A stretch of 35,753 bases of DNA, taken from positions 1-35,753 of the forward strand of contig JAJYMV010000146.1 in NCBI GenBank assembly GCA_021786705.1, given 5' to 3'. This document shows, piece after piece, positions 14,908 to 21,930 of this stretch. The stretch's first letter is position 1; each line of letters starts with the position of its first letter. Made by a program: the position numbers and the translations under genes. This DNA is from a bacterium (GTDB lineage: Bacteria; Vulcanimicrobiota; Vulcanimicrobiia; Vulcanimicrobiales; Vulcanimicrobiaceae). The notes beneath the pieces were generated by a model. The model ran no database searches. It worked only from the letters and a program-made list of their open reading frames with translations, and was not told the origin of the DNA.

Positions 14908-15651
14908 TTACGATTGAGGGGTTGCCTCTTGTGGAACGATGGAACCTCCCGAAAAGTGCCCGCGTGCGGTCGGTGTGTCGGAGAGAACGAGCCCGTCGCG
15001 CAGGCGCACGACGCGGTCCGCACGCTCGGCGACCTCTTCGTCGTGGGTGACGACCACGATCGTGCGACCGGCGCGGTGAAGACTTTCGAAGAGCGCGAGG
15101 ATCTCCTCGCTGGTGGTGCTGTCGAGGTTGCCGGTGGGCTCGTCGGCGAGCAGGACGGCGGGATTATTGATCAGCGCCCGAGCGATTGCGACGCGCTGTT
15201 GCTGGCCGCCCGAGAGTTCGCTCGGCTTGTGGTGGCCGCGATCGGCGAGCCCGACCTCGGCGAGTGCGGCGCGCGCCCGCTCGCGGCGCTCCCGCGGTGA
15301 GACCTTTGCATAAAAAAGCGGCAACGAGACGTTTTTCAGCGCGTCGGTACGCGGAAGAAGGTTGAAGCCCTGGAAGATAAAGCCGAGTTTCTCCAGGCGA
15401 ATCTTTGCCAGCGCGCGATCGTCGAGTGCCGAGAGATCGATGCCGTCGAGATGATAGTTGCCCGAGGTCGGCCGGTCGAGGCAGCCGATGACGTTCATTA
15501 GCGTTGATTTTCCCGAACCGGAGGGGCCCATGATTGCGACGTATTCGCCGCGCTCTATGCGAAGCGTAACGCCACGCAGTGCCTGCACTTCGATGCTGCC
15601 CGACTTGTAGGTCTTGAAGATTTGTTGGAGATCGATTGCGATGTCATTCAT
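14908..15651 (-). CDS. ABC transporter ATP-binding protein (MacB/LolD type)
   Basis: Start [18 protein letters not shown] at 15651. [55 protein letters not shown]. Confidence 0.95.
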
Positions 15652-16852
15652 AGCGTAATGCCTCGATGGGGTCGACGGATGCCGCGCGTAGCGCGGGAAG
15701 GGTGCCGAAGACGAGCGTGACGACGGTTGCAAAGAGCGTGGCGAGGAGGATCGCGTGCATCCACGGAAGCGCCGCGATCGTCCCCGAGATGCGCGCGATA
15801 AAGAGCTGTTGTGCGAGTTCGCCGATCCCGAGCCCGGCGAGCATGCCGACCAACGAACCGCTGAATGCCAGGACGAAGGCTTCGACGAAAAACTGAATGA
15901 GAATCGTCGCTCGCGACGCGCCGATAGCGCGCCGTATTCCGATCTCGCGCGTCCGTTCGCTCACCGAAACGAAGAGAATGTTCATAATCCCAATCCCTGC
16001 AACGAGCAGCGAGATCGCGCCGACGGCACTCACGATCGTTCCGACGACGCCGAAGAAACCATCGATCTGTTTGGTGAAGAAACCAAAATCGAAGGTTTGG
16101 TAGATCGAGCCGCCGTGCGCTTGCGAAAGAACGCGTTTGGAATTCGCTTCGAGCGTCGCCAGCGTCGCATCTCGGCTGCCCAATACCTGGATACCGAAGA
16201 GCGGGCGACCGCGCTGGTAATCGTTGTAGAAGGTCGTGTAGGGAATCACGACGTCGTTATTGATATCGAAGCCTAACGAAGCGGTCGAGAGCGTCGCCGG
16301 GCCGAGCACGCCGACGATGACGTAACGCTTCGGACCGACGTAGACCGATTGGCCGAGCACCGTGCTCGGATCGGCTGCATGGGGGAAGAGGCGCGAGAAC
16401 GCCTTCGACGAGAGCACGCAGACCGGGGTCGCTTGTTCGACGTCGGTGCGCGAGATCGCGTGCCCGGCGACGACCGGCGCGGTGCTGAAGCGGCGATACG
16501 ATTCGCCGCCGAACTTCAGCATGACGTGCTGGTGGCCGGCGCTGACGATGGTGCGCGTTTGTCCGAATGGAATCGCAGTCTCGACGCCGGGAACGTTTCG
16601 CTCGAGGAGCGTCAGGTCGGAGAGCCCGAGATTCGCTCGTTGCGTGCTGCCTTGCGTGGATTTAGGGAAGAGAAAGAACGTATTAATGTTGATCCCGCGG
16701 AAGGCGCCGTTCACCGCTGCCGCCATCCCGGCGGCGGCGACCTGAATGGAGATGATTGCGGCGACGCCGACGACCAGGCCGATTAACGTGAGAATGGTTC
16801 GCGTGAGGTTTTCCTGCATGAGTTCGAGCGTTTCGCGCATGTAGTCGAGCAT
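15644..16852 (-). CDS. MacB-like ABC transporter permease (MacB_PCD/FtsX)
   Basis: 402 aa. N-terminal TM, periplasmic domain, then [39 protein letters not shown]. Overlaps ATPase start. Confidence 0.93.
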
Positions 16853-16853
16853 G

Positions 16854-18041
16854 TTAACTCCGCAGCGCCACGACGGGATCGAGTTTTCCGGCGCGGATCG
16901 CCGGATAGGCGCCGAAGCCGATACCGATGCCGATGGTAAAGAAGGCGGCGATCGAGAGAACGAGCGCCCATGGTACCGGCGCGCTGCCTACGAAGTGCAC
17001 GAGGCTTCCCCGCAATGCAAGGACGATGAGGACGCCGAAGACCGTGCCGATCGCGCCGCCGATCGCCGAAAGGATCGTCGCTTCGATTAAAAACTGCAGC
17101 GAGATATCGCCGGAGCTCGCTCCGATCGATTTGCGGATGCCGATCTCGCGCGTGCGCTCGTTCACCGAGACGAGCATGATATTCATGATACCGATTCCGG
17201 CAACGCAAAGGGCGATGCCGCCGATGAGCGTTATTCCGACGCCGATGCCGCCGAGAACGTGGGAGAATATTCCCAGCGACTTCGCCTGATCCTGAATCCT
17301 GTACTTCGCATGGGGTCCGTGGAGGCTCCGGAGTGCGGCGGCGGCCGCCGCCGTGACCTGCGCGGACCTGACGCCGGGAGCGCTATAAAAAATGATGCCG
17401 TCGATCGGCCCCGGAGCGATGCGATGCATCGTCGTGTACGGGACGTAAATCGCGTCGCCGACGGCACTGCTGAGAAGGCTTCCGGTCGCGTCGAAAACGC
17501 CGACGATTCGTAGCCGCGTGTTGCCGACGGAGATGCTGCGCCCGAGTGGATCTTCGTGCGGGAAGAGCGTTTTGCGAGCCTCTTTCGAGATCATCGCGAC
17601 GTTCGCTGCGGCCAAGACGTCGTTGTGGTCGAGCTTACGTCCCTCGAGGATCACCATGGCGTTGTCGCCCTTGTCGGTGCCGTGGAGTTGCGGATAATGC
17701 GTTTTACCGCCGACGTTCACCGGAAACGGGCGACCGAAATACCCCGCGTACGCACTCGCGATTGCGCCGTTGCTTCGGGCGACGAAGCGCGCGACATCGC
17801 GATAATAGAGCGTTGCAGCGAGCGGGTTATCGGAGGAGCGATCGACGAAAACGACCCACCCCACCGAATCGGCATTGCCCAACGACGCTTCGAGGCCCCG
17901 CGCGCCGGCCTGGCTTAAGCCCAAGACGGCGATCGTCGACGCGATGCCGATAATGGTGCCCAACAATGAGAGCACCGAGCGAAGGCGATTGCGCCAGAGC
18001 GATGCGAGCGCCTCCTCAACGTATGCGGCGAGAACGCTCAC
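16854..18041 (-). CDS. MacB-like ABC transporter permease (second, non-identical)
   Basis: 395 aa, GTG start. [64 protein letters not shown]. Confidence 0.93.
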   Translation of the reverse strand: MSVLAAYVEEALASLWRNRLRSVLSLLGTIIGIASTIAVLGLSQAGARGLEASLGNADSVGWVVFVDRSSDNPLAATLYYRDVARFVARSNGAIASAYAGYFGRPFPVNVGGKTHYPQLHGTDKGDNAMVILEGRKLDHNDVLAAANVAMISKEARKTLFPHEDPLGRSISVGNTRLRIVGVFDATGSLLSSAVGDAIYVPYTTMHRIAPGPIDGIIFYSAPGVRSAQVTAAAAAALRSLHGPHAKYRIQDQAKSLGIFSHVLGGIGVGITLIGGIALCVAGIGIMNIMLVSVNERTREIGIRKSIGASSGDISLQFLIEATILSAIGGAIGTVFGVLIVLALRGSLVHFVGSAPVPWALVLSIAAFFTIGIGIGFGAYPAIRAGKLDPVVALRS

Positions 18042-19333
18042 GGAGTTTCCGAGGGGCTGCTCTGCGGAAGCGGGACGATTCGCATTCCCTCGTGCAGTGC
18101 CGGTACCGCCGAGGCGACGATCGTTTCGCCGGCGGTTAAACCGGAGCGAACGATGCTTTGGAGATCGTTACTTTTGCCGAGGACGACGGCGACTTCGTGA
18201 GCTTCGCCCTTGCGGACGACCCAGATCTTCGTGGCTTTTTTTACGTGGACGATCGCGGCCGTCGGAACGACGAGAGCGTTCGGGATGCTCGTCGTCAGGA
18301 TATCGACGTTCGCCGTCATCCCGTCGCGAAGGACCGGATTGCTTTCGTCGAGGGCGACCGTCGTGAGCACTTCGCGTGCGGTCGAACCGGCGTCGGTGGA
18401 ACGGGTCGCAAGCGGCGAGATGCGCTCGACGTGGCCATGCAGGGTGACGTTCGGAAAGTCTTCGCTCGTGACGTTGACCGGCATGCCGAGGGAGACGGCG
18501 TGGATATCCTGTTCGTCGACCTGTGCCTGCACGACGTAGTTGCTGCCTTCGGCTATCGTGAACATCGCCTGCCCCGCCGAGACCGCGTCGCCGGGAAGAA
18601 TGGTGCGGTTCGCATCCGTCGGTCGCGGTGCGACGCTCTCGATCACTCCGGAGAATGGAGCGACGATACGTTCGAAGCCGAGTTGTTGCTGCGCTTGGTC
18701 GTTGAGGATCTTCGATTTTAGAGCCTGTGCTTTGGCGGCCTGAACCGAGCTCGTTCCGTATCCGGTCACCGCTCCGAGCTTGAGTTGCTCGACCGACTGG
18801 TCGTAGGCGACCTTCGCCTGCTCTTCTTTTGCGCGATCGGCGTCGAGTTGGCTTCGCGGGATCGCTTTGTCGGCGTAGAGCGTTTCGTCGGCGGTCAGGA
18901 CGCGGCGCGCTTCATCGAGGTTGCTTTTCGCGGTATCGACCCCGGCTTGATACTGCACGCGAGCGTTGCGCTCTTGAATCGCCGCGGTCCGTACGTTCGC
19001 GACCGAACTCTGATAGTCGGCGAGCGCTCCGGCGGCGCTCGCGTCGAGCGATGGATTTTCGATCGTTGCGAGCAGCTCGCCGGCCGAGACGTGGCTACCG
19101 GCCTTCACGTCGATGCTCGCGAGATTTCCGCTGACCAGTGCCGGTACCGTTTCCATGTGCGGGTGCATCACGGTGCCGTTCTCCGGGAGCTTCACGACGA
19201 ACGTCGTCGGCTCGACTTTCAACGTTTTGGCGGCGATCGAGTTGCTCGAATGGGGGCGGAATGCAAGCGCGAGTCCGACGGCGACGATCGCGACGACCGC
19301 GACGATGACGATGATCCGGGCGTTCTTGTTCAT
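18038..19333 (-). CDS. Efflux periplasmic adaptor (HlyD/MacA-like membrane fusion protein)
   Basis: 431 aa. N-terminal TM, biotinyl-lipoyl-like GNLASIDVKAGSHVSAGELLATIENP, coiled coil, IVAPFSGVIESVAPRPTD. Confidence 0.93.
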   Translation of the reverse strand: MNKNARIIVIVAVVAIVAVGLALAFRPHSSNSIAAKTLKVEPTTFVVKLPENGTVMHPHMETVPALVSGNLASIDVKAGSHVSAGELLATIENPSLDASAAGALADYQSSVANVRTAAIQERNARVQYQAGVDTAKSNLDEARRVLTADETLYADKAIPRSQLDADRAKEEQAKVAYDQSVEQLKLGAVTGYGTSSVQAAKAQALKSKILNDQAQQQLGFERIVAPFSGVIESVAPRPTDANRTILPGDAVSAGQAMFTIAEGSNYVVQAQVDEQDIHAVSLGMPVNVTSEDFPNVTLHGHVERISPLATRSTDAGSTAREVLTTVALDESNPVLRDGMTANVDILTTSIPNALVVPTAAIVHVKKATKIWVVRKGEAHEVAVVLGKSNDLQSIVRSGLTAGETIVASAVPALHEGMRIVPLPQSSPSETP

Positions 19334-19341
19334 GCTGCTCC

Positions 19342-20757
19342 TTAGTGAAGGTCGGCGACGGCGCTCGTTGGTGAAAAAATACCCATGGATGTGCGCAACC
19401 GGACGAGCGCGTTCACGTACGCGACACGCGCGGAGATGAGGTCGTTTTGCGCCGATATAGAGGTTTGCTGGGCTTGTACGACATCGGAGAGAGCGGCGAC
19501 GCCCGCCTTATATTGAAGCCGTTTGATATTCGCGCTCTCGATTCCTAAACGCGCCTCCTGCCGTGCGTATCCGACTTGTGCGAGGGCGGCCTTCGCGGCG
19601 CGGTAGGCGCTGCGAACGTCGTTGAGCGCCACGAGTTTTGCATTGACGAGCGCGAGCTTGGCGCTCTTCACCGCTGCGTCGTAGTTCACGCGTGAGAGGC
19701 GCCTGGCGCCGTAATCGACGATCGGAAGATTGAACGTGGAGACCGCCTGAATCTGCCAGAAACCGGGGGTTCCACGCGGCACGAGAACCTTACTAGGAAT
19801 CAGGCCCGCGGCATACTCGTTATCGAGTTGCTGTTGTTCGAAGACGGCATTCGTCGGAGAAAATTGGTTGCCGAGTGCGGCCGAGAGTTGGATCTGCGGG
19901 AAGAGCTGCGGCAACCAACTCTTTCGGTTGAGATCGGCGACGCGGAGCGCGTCGCGGGCGCTCGCGATATCGGCGCGGTTCGCCAGCGCGATGCGTTCGA
20001 TTTTTTTCAACGAAATCGACGGGAGTGCGGGGAGCTTCAGCTGCTTCGGCAGCGCGAAGGGCGTTCCGAGCGGTGCGCCGATGCTCTGGCAGAGCGAATC
20101 GAGCGCGTTAGCGACGTTGGCCTGCGCCGCTACGAGCGTCGATTCGCTCCGTGCGACCGCAACGCGAGCCGAGAGGACGTCGACGCCGGCGGCGACACCC
20201 GCGCGTTCCTTGACCCGCGCATTTTGTAATAACAAGCGCTGGTATTGCAAATCACCGCGATCGACGGTCACGAGTTCGTCGTCCTGCACGACGGTATTGA
20301 AGGCCGCCGTTACCGAGGTAGCGACCTGAGCGCGCGCGTTGCGCAGGTTCGCCTTGGCCTGTTCCAAGTTCGCTTTCGCAACCGCAAGTTGAATTCCCGA
20401 GAGACCGCCGGTCGTCAGCGTGTACTGCGCCTGTAATTGCGCGGTATTTTGGCTGAAGATGTTCTGTTGCTGAGCGCCGATGACGGCGTACGCTCCGCCG
20501 TAGTTCGAACTCTTCGACATGACGTTGTTCAGCGAAGCTCCGGCCGTTGGCAGATTCTGCGTTTTTTGAACGGCGAAGGTGGAGCGAGCCGACGCGACGG
20601 CGGCCGCCGAGGCGGCGACCGTGGAGTTGTGCGCGAGCGCGAAGGCGACCGCTTGCCGGAGGGTCAACGGCTGCGGTGCGGCGCCGGCCGGGCCGGCGAA
20701 GAGTGCCCCTGCGAGAAGTGCGGGGGCGCATGTCCAAACGAAAAGTAGGCGACGCAT
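19342..20757 (-). CDS. TolC-family outer-membrane efflux protein
   Basis: ATG at 20757 yields signal peptide MRRLLFVWTCAPALLAGALFAGPAGA. LTLRQAVAFALAHNSTVAASAAAVASARS, duplicated TolC coiled-coil pattern. Confidence 0.92.
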   Translation of the reverse strand: MRRLLFVWTCAPALLAGALFAGPAGAAPQPLTLRQAVAFALAHNSTVAASAAAVASARSTFAVQKTQNLPTAGASLNNVMSKSSNYGGAYAVIGAQQQNIFSQNTAQLQAQYTLTTGGLSGIQLAVAKANLEQAKANLRNARAQVATSVTAAFNTVVQDDELVTVDRGDLQYQRLLLQNARVKERAGVAAGVDVLSARVAVARSESTLVAAQANVANALDSLCQSIGAPLGTPFALPKQLKLPALPSISLKKIERIALANRADIASARDALRVADLNRKSWLPQLFPQIQLSAALGNQFSPTNAVFEQQQLDNEYAAGLIPSKVLVPRGTPGFWQIQAVSTFNLPIVDYGARRLSRVNYDAAVKSAKLALVNAKLVALNDVRSAYRAAKAALAQVGYARQEARLGIESANIKRLQYKAGVAALSDVVQAQQTSISAQNDLISARVAYVNALVRLRTSMGIFSPTSAVADLH

Positions 20758-20769
20758 ACGTCGCCTACT
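20744..20769 (-). promoter_or_regulatory. Start-codon hairpin at the tolC-like gene
   Basis: agtaggcgacg (20744-20754) / cgtcgcctact (20759-20769), perfect 11-bp stem; the 4-nt loop (mRNA UAUG) contains the ATG start codon. Confidence 0.6.
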
Positions 20770-20801
20770 ACGGGGCAGCGGTAGAAAAGTTTCAGGAGCG
20801 C

Positions 20802-21575
20802 TTAGGGGCTCGCCGAGGCGCTCGTCGAGGGAGGGGTGCCGGTCGTTGCGGCCGGTGGTTGAGCGGCGAAAGCTGCGCCGATCAGTGCGGGGACGAGTAG
20901 CACCGCGAGTGCGGCTGCCCACGCTTTGGGGGCCGCCAGGCGAGCGATGTGTTGCATGAGGAGAGAGTTGAGCCAGAGGACCCAGAGTGTGAACGGGGTG
21001 AATGCGGCGAGCAACGCAACAACCTTGATGTTCGCAGACGGAATTATCGCGGCGAGCGAGAGTGAATTACGATAGATATCCATCACCCCGGTGAACGCGT
21101 CGGGACCGCGCAGCGCGAGGACGATCGAGCCGATCAGCGATCCGATTGCAATGACGATGAACACATTCATGCTCGCACACCAAAGTTGCTTGAAGGTCGC
21201 TTTCCCGCCAAGAACGGCGCTGAAAACGAAAAGGATGACCGTTGCGATCAATACGAAGAACAGAATGCCGATCGGCGAAAAGACCCAAGCGAGCTCCGAA
21301 ATTTTCATTCCGATCGCCGCCGCGGCCCTAGCGGCTGCCGCTTGCTGTGCGTTGGCCGCTTCCGCGATCCTTTGCTCCGTTAAGAGACGAGCGATATGTC
21401 GCTGGACCGGGGCGCTCGCCAAAGCGCTGACCACGGTGAGCAGGGAGGAGGCGATGAACGCCCAGCCCCAGGTTTGCTTCTCGGCGAGGCGGTCGAAGGC
21501 GCTCGCCGGGGCGACGATGGTCTCCACGAGGCTGGAGAGCCCCGCGTTCTCTTGAGGTGGTGGTGCAGTTGTCAT
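20802..21575 (-). CDS. Yip1 family multi-pass membrane protein
   Basis: 257 aa with an N-terminal LVETIVAPASAFDRLAEKQTWGWAF Yip1-like pattern and about five TM segments. Confidence 0.75.
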   Translation of the reverse strand: MTTAPPPQENAGLSSLVETIVAPASAFDRLAEKQTWGWAFIASSLLTVVSALASAPVQRHIARLLTEQRIAEAANAQQAAAARAAAAIGMKISELAWVFSPIGILFFVLIATVILFVFSAVLGGKATFKQLWCASMNVFIVIAIGSLIGSIVLALRGPDAFTGVMDIYRNSLSLAAIIPSANIKVVALLAAFTPFTLWVLWLNSLLMQHIARLAAPKAWAAALAVLLVPALIGAAFAAQPPAATTGTPPSTSASASP

Positions 21576-21930
21576 GGCTGCGACTATTGGCGGGCGGCTC
21601 CTCGGTTCTTGCCGCGAGCCGCGGATCGGCGAGCAGGCAACCGATCGGCACCCCCGCCCGCAGCAGTCGCTCGAGGCGCCCGAGGCGCTCCCGGCGCAGT
21701 TCGAGCAGATGGAGAACGAGGATATCCCGCGTTTGGCGCAGGGCGTGCCACGAATAGAGCAGTTCGGCCCGTGGTTGCGACGGCGGGGGCGCGGGTGCGT
21801 GTCGCTTGTGGTGGGGGGTGCTACCGAGCAGGGTCGCGGCGAGTAGCGCGAGCGTGATAGAGTGGCTGTATCGCATGGGCGTTCCTCCGCCCGTCATTCC
21901 CACGCAAACAGCCGTTGTAAAGGCCCCATA

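Follow-up and report, generated by a model that had tools for sequence, protein, structure and literature searches.

A conserved hairpin at the start codon of a tolC-like efflux gene has the features of an intrinsic terminator and overlaps a predicted ECF-type promoter

The start codon of a tolC-like gene that heads an efflux operon lies in the loop of a perfect 11-bp hairpin, and the stem, the loop and the adjoining T-rich tail are unchanged in eight congeneric species of Eremiobacterota. Judged from the sequence, this palindrome would, with slightly better than even probability, be an intrinsic terminator that insulates the operon from RNA of the upstream Yip1-domain gene and that is superimposed on the promoter, the transcription start and codons 1 to 7 of tolC. 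The hairpin, its tail, its position after the upstream stop codon, the promoter motif family and the invariance are direct observations. The genus of the organism, within the candidate phylum Eremiobacterota, is known through genomes assembled from metagenomes, and all coordinates refer to the window, the whole stretch of 35,753 nucleotides that was analyzed. The features of the region are as follows:

14908 to 19333, minus strand: downstream operon (HlyD/MacA-like adaptor, two MacB_PCD/FtsX permeases, ABC ATPase)
19342 to 20757, minus strand: tolC-like outer membrane efflux protein (OEP, PF02321), 471 amino acids
20736 to 20743, minus strand: T-rich tail TTTCGTTT, adjoining the stem (last base of codon 5, codons 6 and 7, first base of codon 8)
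20744 to 20754, minus strand: 3′ arm of the hairpin, CGTCGCCTACT, formed by codons 2 to 4 and two bases of codon 5 (CGT CGC CTA CT)
20755 to 20758, minus strand: loop TATG with the tolC start codon (ATG, 20757 to 20755)
20757 to 20762, minus strand: predicted transcription start zone, about 7 to 11 nt after CGTA (leaderless, or a leader of at most 5 nt)
20759 to 20769, minus strand: 5′ arm of the hairpin, AGTAGGCGACG, between the −10 element and the predicted transcription start
20736 to 20773, minus strand: 38-nt invariant block CCGTAGTAGGCGACGTATGCGTCGCCTACTTTTCGTTT, identical in 8/8 orthologues
20769 to 20772, minus strand: −10 element CGTA, separated by 16 nt from TGAAAC; the hairpin begins with its A (20769)
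20789 to 20794, minus strand: −35 element TGAAAC of an ECF-sigma-type promoter, within CTGAAACTTTT (invariant in 8/8)
20802 to 21575, minus strand: upstream co-directional Yip1-domain membrane protein (PF04893)

On the minus strand, positions 20769 to 20744 read AGTAGGCGACG-TATG-CGTCGCCTACT, with all 11 positions of the stem paired. From the stop codon of Yip1 (TAA) onward, the layout is TAA-gcgctcc-TGAAAC-(16 nt)-CGT-AGTAGGCGACG-TATG-CGTCGCCTACT-TTTCGTTT-GG, and the hairpin follows the stop codon at a distance of 32 to 33 nt. A preliminary description of this DNA had placed the ATG in the 4-nt loop of a perfect hairpin and codons 2 to 4 in its 3′ arm, and both statements hold. Its assignment of a TolC-family start with a signal peptide is likewise borne out, as this ATG is the sole in-frame start common to all eight orthologues and the signal peptide follows directly; a misannotated start is thereby ruled out. 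The gene also heads an efflux operon, as had been stated, with the OEP followed by a macA-like HlyD protein, two MacB/FtsX permeases and an ABC ATPase. Apart from a weak lone AGG 6 nt upstream, no SD sequence precedes the ATG.

The hairpin has a folding energy of −19.7 kcal/mol, and none of 200 shuffles of the 45-nt segment folds equally well. It is single copy in its own genome, which rules out a repeated element. When up to three mismatches are allowed, eight of the ten genus genomes contain one copy each, every one at tolC, and the sole other match in the genus is one three-mismatch site in genome G007. Perfect hairpins of at least 11 bp with loops of 3 to 8 nt are more frequent than expected in the 436 kb covered by these statistics (the window and 400 kb from a congener), with 18 observed against about 2.3 expected, and many of the 18 are terminators between convergent genes. 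A start codon inside such a loop is estimated to occur about 0.04 times per genome (5e-6 per base for about 8000 start-codon positions). Chance alone is a weak argument for the hairpin; conservation is a strong one. Elsewhere in the window, an open reading frame that encodes a repeated 10-letter protein unit (2343 to 2657) probably reflects a tandem DNA repeat and not an ordinary gene.

The tolC start was compared in eight of the ten genus genomes, the contig of G003 starting at tolC residue 69 and G004 being without a tolC orthologue. Four-fold sites of tolC differ by 20 to 51% between pairs of these genomes, and 49 of 222 are invariant. The block CCGTAGTAGGCGACGTATGCGTCGCCTACTTTTCGTTT is invariant in all eight, from the −10 element to the final T of the tail, as is an upstream stretch, CTGAAACTTTT, that contains the −35 element; outside the block the sequence diverges, both in the spacer upstream and from codon 8 onward. 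Codons 1 to 7 form the longest invariant run among the 471 codons of tolC, in a gene where, on average, 18% of codons are identical at positions with an invariant amino acid. The 3′ arm retains the rare leucine codon CTA (3.4% of leucines), and, given MRRLL and the codon usage of the genome, the probability of the exact 3′ arm complementary to the 5′ arm is 0.002. The preliminary description had proposed that orthologues be aligned and compared for compensatory changes upstream of the coding arm. The alignment shows the 5′ arm to be conserved (invariant in 8/8 congeneric genomes), but as 0 of the 11 pairs vary in the eight species there is no covariation to score. Few stem pairs are free to change, because the right arm is coding and the left arm is partly promoter-like, so that the invariance of the stem neither proves nor refutes a role as RNA.

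The early codons of Yip1 and bases upstream of them are also unusually conserved, and part of the invariance of the 3′ arm may be a general effect of start regions. Around the Yip1 start (window 21530 to 21620), the first 13 or so codons and the bases from about −30 to −8 are nearly invariant in seven species, the bases just before the ATG vary, and the protein is only 62 to 84% identical outside the closest pair. A candidate promoter box, CAATAGT, stands 7 nt before this ATG and may mark another near-leaderless start.

The hairpin is restricted to the genus as far as the family was sampled, since none of the 36 tolC orthologues examined in other genera of the family has it at the start, and a family-wide feature is thus ruled out. 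In those genera, tolC generally stands close behind the upstream gene. In one of them (L014), a similar promoter, CGAAAC-N17-CGTA, precedes a tolC without the hairpin, about 156 nt behind the upstream gene. Two further genera carry perfect hairpins of 13 bp (L016, at about base 1 of the match) and 11 bp (L025, at about +39) near or in the coding region of the tolC signal peptide; these lie further into that region and are unrelated to the hairpin at the tolC start. Promoter and hairpin combined thus look like an arrangement peculiar to the genus, one by which the pump operon is uncoupled from the gene next to it.

The promoter motif TGAAAC-N16-CGTA has the classic form of an ECF-sigma promoter of the Bacillus subtilis SigW type. 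With a spacer of 16 or 17 nt, it is found 11 times in the tolC-bearing genome, where the reversed control has 0 matches, and the ten genus genomes together give 109 matches against 30. Several matches directly precede genes and are retained in other species, where −35 element, −10 element and spacer length are kept and the spacer sequence drifts; the genes behind the matches encode, among others, a 256-amino-acid secreted-type protein, a secreted protein family of about 280 amino acids, an RND pump and a membrane protein. Several start codons of this set fall 8 to 14 nt after CGTA, that of tolC at 11 nt. Elsewhere among the ECF promoters of the genus the interval from CGTA to the start codon is variable; at tolC it is constant. 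The candidate ECF-sigma regulon (window 20758 to 20802 and contigs C81, C104, C147, C168, C173 and C48 of G000) includes two efflux systems, the ABC-type tolC operon and the RND pump, as well as secreted and membrane proteins, and within it CGTA is often followed by GTAGG. Eleven Sigma70_r2 matches are present in the genome; no convincing motif was found upstream of them, and none is assigned as the cognate sigma factor.

In Sinorhizobium meliloti, the CGTC of the RpoE9-dependent ECF promoter TGTCACA-N16-CGTC lies 9 nt upstream of the mapped transcription start (PMC3616915). This yardstick, together with the recurrence of start codons 8 to 14 nt after CGTA, places the predicted start of tolC where the 5′ arm ends. 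The arm would then be promoter DNA rather than mRNA leader, and the tolC mRNA itself would be near-leaderless and unable to fold the hairpin. In computed foldings, RNAs that start near the AUG do not form it. Across the whole genome, a TANNNT test for leaderless starts gives no peak, whereas the SD sequence does, and a leaderless start is thus proposed for the ECF regulon only. From the sequence, then, we infer the transcription start of tolC, its leaderless translation, termination at the hairpin and the identity of the sigma factor.

The hairpin has the hallmarks of an intrinsic terminator, namely, a stable GC-rich stem-loop, a T-rich tract and a position downstream of a co-oriented gene. 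The tail TTTCGTTT, with T at six of eight positions, follows directly after the stem, so that in read-through RNA the hairpin is followed by UUUCGUUU, and the distance of about 33 nt from the Yip1 stop codon compares with 20 to 57 nt for clear terminators of the genus. On a d'Aubenton-Carafa-type scale that combines stem energy and T-tail, applied to both strands of the 436 kb, the site scores about 19 to 20 and ranks seventh or eighth; 13 sites score above 10, and the only two inside a gene on the sense strand are the tolC hairpin in two species. The invariance ends exactly at the end of the T-tail, which counts in favor of a terminator. The choice of TTC in the tail counts against it, as this is not the best codon for a U-tract and TTT is synonymous.

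A bidirectional intrinsic terminator between convergent genes (G007:C6:219930-219969, orthologues L165 to L173) serves as the control, with compensatory changes at 6 of its 17 pairs in nine genomes, and is a good calibration case for terminators in Eremiobacterota. The tolC tail TTTTCGTTTG resembles TTTCGTTCGTTTG, the tail of this covariation-supported terminator. Since the control covaries and the tolC stem does not, something stricter than RNA pairing also acts on the latter; coding and promoter constraints explain its absence of compensatory change only in part.

Taken together as a terminator and insulator, the element would work in the following way. The only source of an RNA with both arms lies upstream, and chiefly in Yip1, because the RNA of tolC itself is predicted to begin where the 5′ arm ends. 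Such read-through RNA, holding both arms and the U-rich tail, would fold the hairpin, which would release the polymerase within codons 5 to 8 and lock the tolC AUG away as well. An RNA polymerase carrying an ECF sigma factor would instead use TGAAAC-N16-CGTA and initiate in the last bases of the 5′ arm or just after them, and the resulting (near-)leaderless mRNA, with the 3′ arm only, would form no hairpin and be translated. Expression of the efflux operon would then be confined to times when the ECF sigma factor is active. More tentatively, and with somewhat less than even confidence, the site may represent a terminator centered on a transcription start, a one-way gate at which RNA from upstream is terminated and its start codon masked while RNA begun at the center escapes folding. 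If this is true, codons of the protected gene make up the 3′ half of such a terminator.

The serious rival is an operator, which the preliminary description had offered as an alternative. Efflux operons are often under repressor control of this kind, MtrR being an example. The 26-bp palindrome would bind a dimeric repressor with TetR-like geometry over the −10 element and the start, silencing the ECF promoter as long as no efflux substrate is present, and to this we give roughly one chance in four. The two half-sites are perfectly symmetric, the palindrome is centered near the predicted transcription start, and both half-sites and the 4-bp center are 100% invariant in the eight species, unlike the covarying genus terminator. 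The invariant block, however, is asymmetric and continues through the tail codons CTT TTC GTT, for which an operator has no need; the annotated neighborhood (7.7 to 31.7 kb) contains no regulator gene, and the three-mismatch site in G007 is the only second site in any genus genome. The operator and the terminator could also be present together.

An unlikely reading is that the palindrome has no function, the sequence downstream of the promoter and the early codons being conserved separately and complementary by accident. The recurrence of CGTA-GTAGG after other ECF −10 elements makes half of the left arm promoter-like, the early codons of Yip1 are conserved too, and hairpins do arise at start sites by chance, as the hairpin at the start of ndk (nucleoside diphosphate kinase) in one species illustrates. 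That 13-bp hairpin (G007:C26:101979) is broken in other species, whereas the tolC stem is unbroken in 8/8 species, which speaks against a chance start-site hairpin of this kind. An accident would moreover have to supply the rare CTA and the complementarity calculated above, and the region from the −10 element to the ATG varies at other promoters of the same type, as do the bases before the Yip1 ATG, which argues that the left arm of tolC is held by more than the promoter. The ndk site is of interest in itself: a perfect hairpin adjoins the start codon (L136, G007:C26, 1979 to 2008), and in the orthologues L156 to L159 the outer pairs decay and the core palindrome CTTGGGCGTACCCAAG before the ATG is nearly invariant across five species, possibly as an operator or promoter element.

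About one chance in ten is left to the gate first proposed for this site, in which a hairpin of the tolC mRNA covers the start region until temperature, a ligand or a protein opens it: the fold is strong, the AUG lies in the loop and a Yip1-tolC read-through transcript would carry the hairpin, but for such a gate transcription would have to begin before the hairpin, of which there is no sign, the lone AGG is the only SD-like sequence to sequester, 11 GC-rich base pairs make a very stable stem for a thermosensor, and the window has 0 Rfam matches. A transcription start downstream of the 5′ arm, which the preliminary description had named as speaking against its proposal, is what the conserved promoter predicts, and by prediction the tolC transcript does not contain the arm. 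The overlapping promoter and the lack of an Rfam match are the reasons for which an RNA switch in the gene's own mRNA is rejected as first choice. The hairpin, which proves to be conserved, the start codon in the loop and the efflux operon thus stand from that description, and the gating of the tolC mRNA is not supported.

Under the favored terminator, 38 invariant bases would be shared by a terminator, a promoter, a transcription start and a start codon. If this is true, the point at which a message starts would alone decide whether the same DNA acts as a terminator or as the translatable start of a gene, and, if general, it would be a compact way to tie a stress operon to one promoter only. 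For start-codon hairpins seen in DNA, an internal promoter should be looked for before an RNA switch is proposed. The ECF regulon is a candidate one in a little-studied phylum.

A literature search did not find this exact overlap of terminator, promoter and start codon among the papers covered, which is weak evidence of its absence, and the element can be set beside several known systems. RNA thermometers and start-codon-sequestering riboswitches likewise have the AUG within a hairpin, but the 5′ arm at tolC is predicted to be absent from the gene's own mRNA. Operators of the TetR family in efflux systems share the long palindrome over the promoter and start of an efflux operon; the conservation at tolC is instead asymmetric, through the T-tail, and is accompanied by no local regulator gene. 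With SigW-type promoters of B. subtilis the tolC promoter shares the exact −35 element, spacer and −10 element, as well as a regulon-like set of cell envelope and efflux genes; it differs in that it runs straight into a palindrome and in that none of the sigma factor candidates is assigned to it. The terminator T1 of Tn916 stands before a set of genes and blocks read-through from an upstream promoter (PMC11658703). T1 is also a terminator that acts as an insulator, but it works with an antiterminator, and no fusion to a promoter and start codon is described for it (PMC11658703). With intrinsic terminators the tolC element has in common a perfect stem rich in GC, a loop of 4 nt, a T-rich tail and a location about 33 nt past an upstream stop codon, and its score falls within the range of clear terminators of the genus. 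It differs from them in that its 3′ arm and tail are codons 1 to 7 of the next gene, its 5′ arm lies between the −10 element and the predicted transcription start of that gene, and its stem shows no covariation.
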